The position numbers and the translations under genes are program-made. Below, piece after piece: positions 4,454 through 39,457 of a DNA stretch of 42,539 nucleotides. Under the pieces are notes generated by a model. That model had not been told where the DNA came from. It did no database searches and was given only the letters and a program-made list of their open reading frames with translations. Numbering within the stretch: position 1 is the first letter of the stretch; the number at the start of each line of letters is the position of its first letter. The stretch spans positions 1-42,539 of the forward strand of contig NZ_APHY01000066.1 in assembly GCF_000417505.1 (NCBI RefSeq), read 5' to 3'. The DNA comes from Megasphaera sp. NM10 (GTDB taxonomy: Bacteria; Bacillota; Negativicutes; Veillonellales; Megasphaeraceae).

Positions 4454-4470
4454 AAAAGTAAAAAATTAAA

Positions 4471-4494
4471 CCTATCCGCTAACAACTAACAACC
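4471..4494 (-). repeat. Heptamer units beside the terminator
   Basis: On the minus strand GTTGTTA, GTTGTTA, GCGGATA follow each other in register. The same GTTAGTTGTTAGCGG sequence recurs on the plus strand near 32134. Confidence 0.6.
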
Positions 4495-4496
4495 TG

Positions 4497-4532
4497 AAAG
4501 GAGCTGTCGCGATGCGACAGCTCCTTTTTTTT
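4497..4532. terminator. Convergent terminator with 11-bp stem
   Basis: GGAGCTGTCGC (4500-4510), loop GAT, GCGACAGCTCC (4514-4524), then T8. A's on the other side make it usable for the minus-strand gene ending at 4536. Confidence 0.9.
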
Positions 4533-13201: not shown

Positions 13202-13290
13202 CTAGTGGCTCGTGGTTGCGGCCCGTTGTGGGAATCCCGCCATCGGCATCCGTAGGGGCGACCACGTGGGGCGCCCGCCATGGGGATCCC
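13202..13290 (+). repeat. Heptamers plus GTAGGGG hairpin module
   Basis: CTAGTGG, CTCGTGG and TTGCGGC (13202-13222) are in 7-bp register. GTAGGGGCGACC at about 13250 begins a GC-rich imperfect hairpin ending GGGCGCCCGCC. The phrase ATCCCGCCA occurs twice in the region. Together with the next two entries this fills the 267-base gap 13189-13455, which has no gene. Confidence 0.6.
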
Positions 13291-13303: not shown

Positions 13304-13341
13304 AAAAAAAGGGGCTGTCGCACGTACGACAGCCCCTTTTT
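13304..13341. terminator. Bidirectional terminator, GCTGTC/GACAGC family
   Basis: GGGGCTGTCG (13311-13320), loop CACGTA, CGACAGCCCC (13327-13336), A7 before and T5 after. It serves the acidic protein gene on the plus strand. Confidence 0.88.
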
Positions 13342-13446
13342 AGGGTTAGCAGCTAGTGGCTAGTGGTTAGGGGATGGCTTTAAATTTAAAGGTTTTCTCT
13401 GACAACTACAAGCTCCGTACTACAAACCATACTCGCATGATGGCAG
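13339..13446. repeat. Full composite intergenic element: heptamers, AT-rich core, inverted heptamers, GATGGCAG module
   Basis: Left arm heptamers TTTAGGG, TTAGCAG, CTAGTGG, CTAGTGG, TTAGGGG (13339-13373). Core GATGGCTTTAAATTTAAA (about 13373-13390). Right arm read on the minus strand GTTTGTA, GTACGGA, GCTTGTA, GTTGTC (13427 back to 13401). Then CATGATGGCAG (13436-13446). The same order of modules occurs at 16396-16523 and 39318-39441. Confidence 0.75.
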
Positions 13447-13455
13447 GCCAACGCC

Positions 13456-16358: not shown

Positions 16359-16393
16359 AAAACGGAGCTGTCCAATGAAGACAGCTCCGTTTT
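16359..16393. terminator. Terminator after lysS
   Basis: ACGGAGCTGTC (16362-16372), loop CAATGAA, GACAGCTCCGT (16380-16390), with A and T tracts on both sides. Confidence 0.85.
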
Positions 16394-16395
16394 AC

Positions 16396-16523
16396 GTTGG
16401 TCGCAGGCCGTTCATCGTTTGTCGCAAGGGAGCAAAAATAACAAGCCATCGCGATGAACGATGAACGACGAACGAAAAACTTTTAAGTCAAAGGAATCGT
16501 GCATGATGGCAGAAACCTTCATG
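16396..16523. repeat. Second full copy of the composite intergenic element
   Basis: Plus-strand heptamers GTTGGTC, GCAGGCC, GTTCATC, GTTTGTC (16396-16423). A core that contains GATGGCTT on the minus strand. Then minus-strand heptamers GTTTTTC, GTTCGTC, GTTCATC, GTTCATC (16480 back to 16453). It ends with CATGATGGCAGAA plus CCTTCATG (16502-16523), which differs at one base of 22 from 39420-39441. Confidence 0.75.
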
Positions 16524-16537
16524 GAACCGTCCTTATC

Positions 16538-21587: not shown

Positions 21588-21676
21588 TAGGGTTAGTGGC
21601 TCGTGGAGAGCACCACCAAATCCCAGGCGGGTCGCCCACGCGGCGACCCCTACTACAAACTGCAAACTTAATACTC
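21588..21676. repeat. Composite intergenic element with GTAGGGG hairpin
   Basis: Heptamers TTAGGG, TTAGTGG, CTCGTGG at the left. A GTAGGGG-type GC hairpin in the middle (minus strand, GGGGTCGCCGCGTGGGCGACCC). A 24-base stretch at 21653-21676 is the exact reverse complement of 39318-39341; both sit next to a GGCGCTGTC terminator. Confidence 0.75.
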
Positions 21677-21712
21677 AAAAAGGCGCTGTCTTCATGCGAC
21701 AGCGCCTTTTTT
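21677..21712. terminator. Terminator after ftsH
   Basis: GGCGCTGTC (21682-21690), 7-base loop, GACAGCGCC-type right arm (21698-21706), A and T tracts on both sides. Read on the minus strand it is identical, loop included, to the ribBA terminator at 30419-30454. Confidence 0.9.
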
Positions 21713-21718
21713 CACTCT

Positions 21719-28893: not shown

Positions 28894-28949
28894 CTTGCAA
28901 AAATGAAAGTTACCGTGTATAATACATAACAGAACTGAATAAAACGTAT

Positions 28950-29073
28950 ATCTTCAGGGCAGGGTGAAATTCCCGATCGGCGGTATAGTCCGCGAACGCT
29001 ACGGCGTAGGAGCCATTGGCTCGTGATTTGGTGCGATTCCAAAACCGACAGTATAGTCTGGATGGAAGAAGAT
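28950..29073 (+). ncRNA. FMN riboswitch (RFN element)
   Basis: The conserved RFN blocks appear in order: ATCTTCAGGGCAGGGTGA, AATTCCCGATCGGCGG, TATAGTCCGCGA, a variable hairpin with GGAGCCATTGGCTC, TTGGTGCGATTCCA, AACCGACAGTATAGT, CTGGATG and the closing GAAGAT that pairs with ATCTTC. FMN binding senses flavin level. A terminator follows at 29115-29144, so control is by premature termination before ribBA. This accounts for most of the gap 28894-29191. Confidence 0.96.
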
Positions 29074-29114
29074 GTGGCGTGCTGTTTCTGCAGCGTGCCT
29101 TTCCTTGCATGTCA

Positions 29115-30455: not shown

Positions 30456-30483
30456 GCAGTGGCTCGTGGCTCGTGGTTTGTAA
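30456..30483 (+). repeat. Heptamer array after the ribBA terminator
   Basis: GCAGTGG, CTCGTGG, CTCGTGG, TTTGTAA in 7-bp register. The remaining bases to 30571 contain GC-rich imperfect hairpins (CTGCCAG/CTGGCGG) and no gene. Confidence 0.65.
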
Positions 30484-32099: not shown

Positions 32100-32210
32100 T
32101 CGTAGGGGCCGTCCCAAAGGGCGGCCCGTTCTGGTTAGTTGTTAGCGGTTCGTCAATGTCTGCGTGACGCCCTTGGGGCATCCCCTACGAACTACGAGGC
32201 ACGACGCTCT
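32100..32210 (+). repeat. GTAGGGG hairpins flanking a heptamer array
   Basis: CGTAGGGGCCGTCCC (from about 32101) opens one GC hairpin. Heptamers GTTAGTT, GTTAGCG, GTTCGTC follow at 32134-32154. A second module on the minus strand, TTCGTAGGGGATGCCCC, closes the block near 32190. It resembles an inverted pair of GTAGGGG modules. Confidence 0.6.
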
Positions 32211-39285: not shown

Positions 39286-39315
39286 AAAAAGGCGCTGTCT
39301 TATGACAGCGCCTTT
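39286..39315 (-). terminator. Terminator of pyrG
   Basis: GGCGCTGTC (39291-39299), 4-base loop, GACAGCGCC (39304-39312); T5 on the minus strand. Confidence 0.9.
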
Positions 39316-39317
39316 GG

Positions 39318-39441
39318 GAGTATTAAGTTTGCAGTTTGTAGTTTTTAGTGAAGTTTTTTAAATTTAAAGCCATCTTCTACAAACTCCGTACTACAAACTA
39401 TAAATTAAAAGGGGCCTGGCATGATGGCAGAACCCTTCATG
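39318..39441. repeat. Third full copy of the composite intergenic element
   Basis: Left heptamers GTTTGCA, GTTTGTA, GTTTTTA (39327-39347). Core containing TTTAAATTTAAAGCCATC. Right arm read on the minus strand GTTTGTA, GTACGGA, GTTTGTA (39398 back to 39378). Then CATGATGGCAGAA and CCTTCATG (39420-39441). The core is inverted relative to 13339-13446. 39318-39341 matches 21653-21676 exactly in reverse complement. Confidence 0.78.
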
Positions 39442-39457
39442 CGGCGGCCCCCACTAA

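Follow-up and report, generated by a model that had tools for sequence, protein, structure and literature searches.

The window analyzed here is a 42,539-nucleotide stretch of Megasphaera sp. NM10 (contig NZ_APHY01000066.1, positions 1 to 42,539, forward strand). Three of its intergenic gaps contained a modular element in which short arrays of 7-bp units face each other around a core and are flanked by terminator-like hairpins. The element recurred at scores of places in the same genome and in that of a sister species, and the copies differed between the two species. At about an even chance, we favored the view that the elements are a family of short, non-coding, REPIN-like hairpins that are non-autonomous, probably mobile, and settle at the 3' ends of genes. 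A first-pass annotation of the window had reported a mosaic element of defined architecture that is dispersed among intergenic gaps, and copy number, module order, subfamily mosaicism, and presence or absence in orthologous gaps supported that description.

Results

Copy number and species distribution

The window's own genome (G000) was compared with that of a sister species (G006), which was collinear with the window at 86-94% identity over long blocks, and with 13 other genomes of the genus. Each species was represented by one genome, and the outgroups compared were G009, G013, G012, G001, and G005. The core pattern, with up to two mismatches, gave 54 + 54 matches in G000 (reversed control, 0 + 0). 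The 100 of these 108 matches that were listed fell at 84 places, so the core occupied at least 84 distinct places. With one mismatch allowed, G006 had 36 matches at 32 places. The place counts are counts of core matches, and a few core-like places carried no arms. Among 60 relatives, the core was matched only in G000 and G006, plus a single one-mismatch match in G029, and it was unmatched in all 13 other genomes of the genus. The hairpin B sequence GCATGATGGCAG had 23 exact matches in G000 (reversed control, 0). The first-pass annotation had suggested that copies be sought across the genome; they were abundant, and 19 aligned copies shared the module order.

Runs with a period of exactly 7, as in the STRR heptanucleotide repeats, were scored in 420 kb of G000, 956 kb of G006, 180 kb of G013, and 157 kb of G009 (cutoff, score of 13 or more). 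There were 25 such runs in G000 and 41 in G006, and no other lag between 4 and 12 yielded more than 4. No period-7 runs were found in the outgroups G013 and G009 (338 kb).

The exact 18-base core also appeared in outside sequence sets, once each in 60 genome contig stretches and 16 viral stretches; records close to our own genome were possibly excluded from these sets. Of ten such stretches checked (seven via a loose flank filter), only L273 had arms, and it resembled the own-genome locus L005. A plasmid or phage origin was considered and rejected, as BLAST of element 1 against plasmids and phages returned no match.

Element architecture

Full copies contained, in order, hairpin A, three to four heptamers, a palindromic core (GATGGCTTTAAATTTAAAGCCATC or a variant), an inverted arm, AGAAAGG, and hairpin B. 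Hairpin A was made up of an A-tract, a GC stem with CTGTCGCA or CTTGTCG, a short loop, the complementary stem, and a T-tract, and it was terminator-like. Hairpin B had a longer loop (e.g., GGGACCTCGCATGATGGCAAAAACCATCGTGTGAGGTCCC) followed by a T-tract. The 19 distinct copies that passed a two-hairpin pattern aligned over the same module order, with hairpin B eroded in some of them.

The gaps at 13304-13446, 16359-16523, and 39286-39441 had been described as sharing one order of parts, and the named parts were present in that order. In element 1, hairpin A (13304-13341; an A-tract, GGGGCTGTCGCA..CGACAGCCCC, and a T-tract, with stem covariation in the family) was followed by an A1-type arm (13344-13372, + strand; TTAGCAG CTAGTGG CTAGTGG TTAG), the palindromic core (13373-13390, + strand; GATGGCTTTAAATTTAAA), an inverted B1-type arm (13391-13431, - strand; ACTACAA GCTCCGT ACTACAA ACC), and a truncated hairpin B (13433-13447, + strand) with GCATGATGGCAG. 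Element 2 comprised hairpin A (16359-16393), for which an orthologous CTGTC-stem hairpin was present in outgroups G009, G013, and G012, an arm (16407-16426, + strand; GTTCATC GTTTGTC), a variant core (16427-16449, + strand), an inverted arm (16450-16475, - strand; GATGAAC GATGAAC GACGAAC) that paired with the left arm in the predicted fold, and an eroded hairpin B with GCATGATGGCAGAAACCTTC (16490-16530, + strand). Element 3 contained hairpin A (39286-39316), whose place in the G006 ortholog was occupied by an insertion sequence, an A2-type arm (39317-39350, + strand; AGTATTA AGTTTGC AGTTTGT AGTTTTT AGTGAAG), a palindromic core (39355-39374, + strand; TTTAAATTTAAAGCCATC), an inverted B2-type arm (39375-39403, - strand), and hairpin B (39409-39450, + strand; loop, CATGATGGCAGAACCCTTCATG). 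By eye, hairpin B was intact only in element 3 (39409-39450); those at 13433 and 16490 were eroded. The predicted RNA folds of the three elements were 4.4, 6.1, and 5.5 standard deviations below those of shuffled sequences.

Two parts of the original description were revised by eye. The sequence CATGATGGCAG, taken to be a separate module, was present in the gaps, but by eye it was the 5' arm and loop of hairpin B. The proposed common AT-rich core was seen at 13373 and 39357, both within a 24-bp palindrome, but the stretch at 16427-16449 resembled it only in AAGCCATCGCG; thus, the element at 16359 belonged to another subfamily.

Heptamer arms

When 125 arms were aligned to the core, the register AGT....AGTT..TAGTT..TAG was kept at 70% or more per position. 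Because the register was conserved, arm types A1 (TTAGTGG), A2 (TTTGTAG), and A3 (TTTGATG) seem, together with their B partners, to be a single arm that has drifted. The earlier suggestion that the period of 7 is kept while the unit changes needs one refinement, in that the unit was not free to vary: AGTT or a close variant recurred in a register locked to the core, and the other bases varied.

The orientation of the arms was strongly biased. Among 87 arms in 1.42 Mb of G000 and G006, neighbors 5-70 nucleotides apart were inverted and facing in 18 cases, direct in 1, and facing away in 0. A stricter cut (63 arms) gave 16 facing, 0 direct, and 0 away, the strict pattern gave 5, 0, and 0, and there were no arms in 343 kb of outgroup sequence. 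Many arms flanked a core in pairs, though arrays also occurred free (e.g., G006:1059971-1060021).

Arm types were assigned with handmade rules at 80 core-like places (45 in G000 and 35 in G006), 69 of which had at least one typable arm. The arm subfamilies matched in 43 of 52 elements with both A and B arms, a figure that mixes common subfamily descent with any pairing constraint; the permutation mean was 21.7, none of 10,000 permutations reached 43, and 9 elements were recombinants. A3 was best partnered with B3 and A1 with B1, and A2 went about equally with B1 and B2. Real arm pairs were also more stable than re-paired arms (2 of 1,000 re-pairings).

Terminator-like hairpins and neighboring genes

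The element hairpins had the sequence features of intrinsic terminators (GC stem, short loop, T-tract, and compensated stem). Of 27 distinct hairpin A stems, 16 could be placed in register and the other 11 were dropped; among the 16, base pairs filled 93 of 96 outer cells, and each position showed at least two pair types. Strong hairpins with a T-tract had similar densities in the four genomes compared (2.12, 1.93, 1.94, and 1.65 per 10 kb in G000, G006, G013, and G009, respectively). Their stems were different. A TGTC..GACA stem was found in 40/89 hairpins in G000 and 97/194 in G006 versus 4/36 in G013 and 2/26 in G009 (pooled, 137/283 versus 6/62; P = 4e-9). Likewise, a heptamer arm adjoined the hairpin in 23/89 and 45/194 cases in the two sister species versus 0/36 and 0/26 in G013 and G009 (pooled P = 5e-7), and the lag-8 control gave 1, 0, 0, and 0. 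In nine comparable G000 gaps with a TGTC stem, an outgroup hairpin was detected in seven, two of which had an identical stem. From the excess in stem share and the outgroup hairpins in comparable gaps, we read the TGTC-stem hairpins as having overwritten older terminators.

The elements were extragenic, as only 5 of 72 were centered inside an open reading frame (ORF) of at least 90 amino acids. The 64 elements with both neighbors lay in 36 tandem, 21 convergent, and 7 divergent gaps, and the background gaps numbered 262, 105, and 125, respectively. Divergent gaps were under-represented (7/64 versus 125/492; P = 0.012), which indicated a bias toward gene 3' ends.

Turnover between sister species

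Arm types in orthologous gaps were judged by eye. A hairpin-A-side arm was present in both species in 14 gaps; gaps L002, L006, L009, L010, L030, L035, L043, L048, L053, and C9 16193 had no such arm in one species and were left out of the count. The arm type differed between G000 and G006 in 10 of the 14 gaps (window 945, 4454, 13189, 21497, and 38884; C9 2491 and 60669; C16 57136; L027; and L034) and was the same in window 16376, C9 11668, L003, and L040. At C16:57136 and L027, both arms differed in type and the layout was unchanged. L030 and L034 had a single hairpin in G006 versus two hairpins and an element in G000.

The orthologous gaps printed for G009, G013, G012, G001, and G005 contained plain hairpins, some of which shared CTGTC, and heptamers were absent. 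The comparison of orthologous gaps that had been proposed for the window thus revealed copies that were present, truncated, or absent between sister species and outgroup gaps that lacked heptamers. In view of these differences, the elements probably expanded in the lineage leading to G000 and G006, and turnover is probably continuing.

Hairpins of the same design outside the genus

With up to two mismatches, AGTTNNTAGTTNNTAGTTNNTAG was found at 313 places in G000, 105 in G006, and 147 in G042, a 75%-complete genome from another family of the same order, and at no more than 17 in any of the other 117 genomes; its reversed control gave 52 in G006, consistent with TTTGATG arms. G042 had its own element. 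BLAST gave 62 matches to it in that genome, a figure that counts both strands and so exceeds the number of places, and no match in eight other genomes. Inverted arms of the (AGTTATC)4 type surrounded two hairpins and an AT-rich middle, and the interior was unrelated to that of the Megasphaera element. When 380 genomes of the class were scanned with (AGTTNNY)3AGTGAWGG, a pattern derived from both families, 13 had matches: G042 had 128, G000 had 49, and G006 had 16, and none of the others exceeded 5 (reversed control, 1 or fewer). The arm design is not private to the source genome.

Viral contigs also carried such hairpins. A 5.7-kb contig had four two-armed hairpins and one half, located by eye between apparent genes. 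In exact scans with 29 fixed bases each, facing AGTTNNN arms with a period of 7 were found in 55 viral stretches, compared to 2 with a period of 8, 0 with a period of 6, and 1 with ATGT at period 7. GATTNNN facing hairpins (L404-L455) represented a second anchor with the same design. Since these were of the same design, the rule is a period of 7 with facing arms, for which more than one anchor is possible, rather than AGTT alone.

After deduplication, 49 AGTT and 47 GATT viral hairpins remained (96 in all), and the modal arm had four heptamers (49/98 and 52/94 arms, respectively; minimum allowed, 3). The variable triplets matched across the stems at 0.587 (AGTT) and 0.532 (GATT) versus 0.296 and 0.329 when shuffled between hairpins. 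The AGTT hairpins were mostly outside ORFs of at least 70 amino acids (39 of 46 distinct hairpins; ORF cover, 0.90), with 2 of 34 in divergent gaps; only 16 of 43 GATT hairpins were outside ORFs. We rejected AGTGAAGG as a universal inner end: it was seen in several G042 and A2 arms, but the exact 8-mer was present in 2 of 98 viral inner ends, both on one contig.

Other heptamer arrays were noted in passing. Long pure arrays of (ACGAGCC)n and (ACTAGCC)n were located at L308 and L310 of G075, a genome of the same class, and G026, G035, and G059 had 11-15 matches to a reversed control pattern, probably from other heptamer families.

Candidate mobilizing enzymes

A RAYT partner was rejected: by eye, the Y1_Tnp genes inspected resembled ordinary IS200/IS605 copies, and two of those in G000 adjoined a TnpB-like frame. 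In G003, there were 14 Y1_Tnp matches, probably due to an insertion-sequence expansion.

A second candidate was an insertion sequence with the Pfam domains DDE_Tnp_1_6 and DUF772, which may belong to the IS1182 family. Among the 15 genus genomes, the transposase reached E = 1e-100 in just two: G006, with three copies, and G000, with one partial copy. Its ends were GGGGCTGTAACA..TGTTACAGCCCC, flanked by A- and T-tracts (L278, L280, and L281 in G006; L279 in G000). All three G006 copies occupied the place of hairpin A next to a heptamer arm, and the partial copy at L279 had no arm at its visible end. This insertion sequence is a possible partner of the element; alternatively, it may only target such hairpins.

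Other features of the window

By eye, the partial copies listed in the first-pass annotation were of two kinds. Those at 993, 4471, and 21650-21713 were half or truncated elements beside a hairpin A; those at 13202, 21588, 30456, and 32134 were short heptamer runs that lacked a core. The truncated element (964-1057, + strand) had hairpin A, a TTAGTGG array (993-1024), and a hairpin B remnant, and its G006 ortholog was a full A2 element. Half elements were found at 4463-4530 (- strand; hairpin A plus a CTAACAA arm) and at 21650-21713 (- strand; hairpin A plus an A2 arm, with an A1 arm in the G006 ortholog). The GTGGCTC run (30456-30480, + strand) adjoined a hairpin.

By eye, GC-rich palindromic modules adjoined some elements (window 13249-13285 and 32100-32130; GTAGGGGC..GCGCCCG and GTAGGGGCCGTCCC..GGGCGGCCC). 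A scan of Rfam at the gathering thresholds detected no known RNA at the elements; the sole match was an FMN riboswitch (RF00050; window 28946-29077, + strand; 114.6 bits).

Discussion

Origin of the elements

If the elements are mobile, REPIN-like hairpins, each half would consist of an intrinsic-terminator-like hairpin plus an arm of 3-4 heptamers (AGTTNNT or a variant), and the halves would meet head to head at the AT-rich palindromic core. The paired arms could form a hairpin or cruciform that is recognized and copied by a putative enzyme. As carriers of a bidirectional terminator, copies would do little harm at the 3' ends of genes; they would therefore settle there and then take over from the native terminator. 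Unit variants would spread along an arm through exchange between copies and through slippage by 7 bases at a time, and pairing would keep the arms matched; hence, the period and the anchor would stay while the remaining bases drift.

Several observations weigh against this view. Mobility and function are both inferred, the former from dispersal and turnover; the terminator role of hairpins A and B, although likely, is predicted from sequence. No clean target-site duplication was readable in the orthologous gaps printed, and several G006 gaps (L003 and L040) resembled deletions or truncations rather than uninserted sites. Two of the nine TGTC-stem gaps had no program-detected outgroup hairpin, although by eye a long-loop hairpin was visible in one of them (13189). 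In the simplest test, the two arms of an element were no more alike, position by position, than in a permutation that mixes arm sides (0.46 versus 0.51), and arm-to-arm pairing was weak in some elements (0.3 to 6 expected pairs in the lowest 4 of 60). The strict arm pattern gave three heptamers in 32 of 44 arms and four in 10 of 44, so four per arm holds in G000 and G006 only if looser outer units are counted; a fourth, outer heptamer was visible in the A1 and A2 consensus. Y1_Tnp matches were present in 11 of the 15 genus genomes, and no partner enzyme was established. When the Y1 loci (all three in G000 and two in G006, up to about 1.5 kb per side) were scanned loosely for the core, CATGATGG, and TGTCG..CGACA, one CCATCATG (L186) was the only match. 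Outside the genus, the G042 copies were homologous beyond the arms, out to TGTACA ends, and GATT at period 7, which was meant as a control, gave 52 viral stretches, so AGTT is not unique.

The strongest rival, which we regard as unlikely though well worth considering, dispenses with mobility. The arms would arise where they stand: next to terminators, DNA polymerase would slip by 7 bases at a time, and template switching by fold-back would copy one arm into the other, yielding inverted heptamer arms that drift together. Adjacent heptamers within viral arms agreed at 0.66 (AGTT) and 0.53 (GATT) of the variable positions, both arms differed together between the species at C16:57136 and L027, and slippage is cited as an explanation of period-7 repeats in the parts consulted of PMC4679880 and PMC4692102. 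Slippage in place with fold-back leaves unexplained, however, why one core, one hairpin B, and the same subfamilies are found at scores of places on many contigs.

It is less probable still that the elements are a host-owned RNA signal, selected as 3'-end structures (terminators or mRNA stabilizers) and spread by their usefulness. The compensated hairpin A stems, the bias toward gene 3' ends, and the predicted folds 4-6 standard deviations below shuffles are all consistent with such a signal, but the orthologous gaps of the sister species vary (present, truncated, or absent) and the printed outgroup gaps hold plain hairpins. Finally, it is very improbable that the elements are miniature inverted-repeat transposable elements (MITEs) of the DDE_Tnp_1_6 insertion sequence, whose ends resemble the hairpin A arms: the transposase reached E = 1e-100 only in the two element carriers among the 15 genomes and three G006 copies stand where hairpin A would be, but the ends agree over only about 8 bases, CTGTC is also present in some outgroup hairpins, the insertion sequence may merely target hairpins, and the sample is one clade.

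Comparison with known systems

BOX, RUP, and other MITEs are modular and dispersed, as are the elements described here, and have inverted ends. The outer arms AAAAGGGGCTGTCGCA and TGCGACAGCCCCTTTT were likewise inverted, but so would be those of any two terminator hairpins. The likeness to REPINs and BIMEs, as described in the consulted parts of PMC3116915, is closer: both are dispersed, intergenic, mosaic, and non-coding, with two inverted halves and a predicted hairpin. Our elements shared with REPINs the inverted facing pairs, high copy number, and extragenic location. They differed in having heptamer-array arms and terminator-like hairpins on the halves and in that no RAYT was found beside them; a repeat-flanked RAYT (Y1 transposase) gene, as is typical of REPINs, was not seen at the five Y1 loci scanned.

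Cyanobacterial STRR and heptanucleotide arrays, according to the sections consulted of PMC4692102 and PMC6344855, are also seven-base tandem units in gaps, and their units are species dependent. Those arrays are tandem, whereas the arms here are paired, inverted, 3-4 units long, and core bound. The TAACTGA repeats of Beggiatoaceae, Cyanobacteria, and Bacteroidetes (PMC4679880, in part) are a rotated reverse complement of AGTTATC, the main G042 unit. They are direct repeats, located in one genome mostly just 5' of start codons, with no mention of facing pairs in the parts consulted. As 7 mod 3 = 1, tandem heptamers may place a stop codon in every reading frame, a possibility noted here by eye and remarked on for TAACTGA by the same source. 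None of the open-license papers searched described heptamer arms that are paired and face each other.

Tandem heptamers are reportedly the commonest tandem repeats between prokaryotic genes, and "no clear clue" is available as to what they do (PMC6344855, in part); their over-representation is known but unexplained in what we consulted of PMC6344855 and PMC4692102. The recurrence of hairpins built by the same rule in viral contigs and in another bacterial family may help to account for the abundance of seven-base repeats among bacteria. We tentatively propose, as a possibility that we rate below mobility of the Megasphaera elements themselves, that a large share of the heptamer repeats between prokaryotic genes, rather than being simple repeats, are arms of one widespread, unrecognized class of mobile hairpins in bacteria and viral contigs. 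Each arm would hold about four heptamers made of a constant tetramer (AGTT or GATT) and a variable triplet; the arms would lie inverted on either side of a short interior, and a dedicated enzyme that steps by seven bases would read them. If many tandem heptamers are indeed paired hairpin arms, then the question shifts from slippage to recognition and becomes testable. The two sister species also offer a system in which a single repeated stem, seldom seen in two outgroups, underlies about half of the detected terminator-like hairpins.
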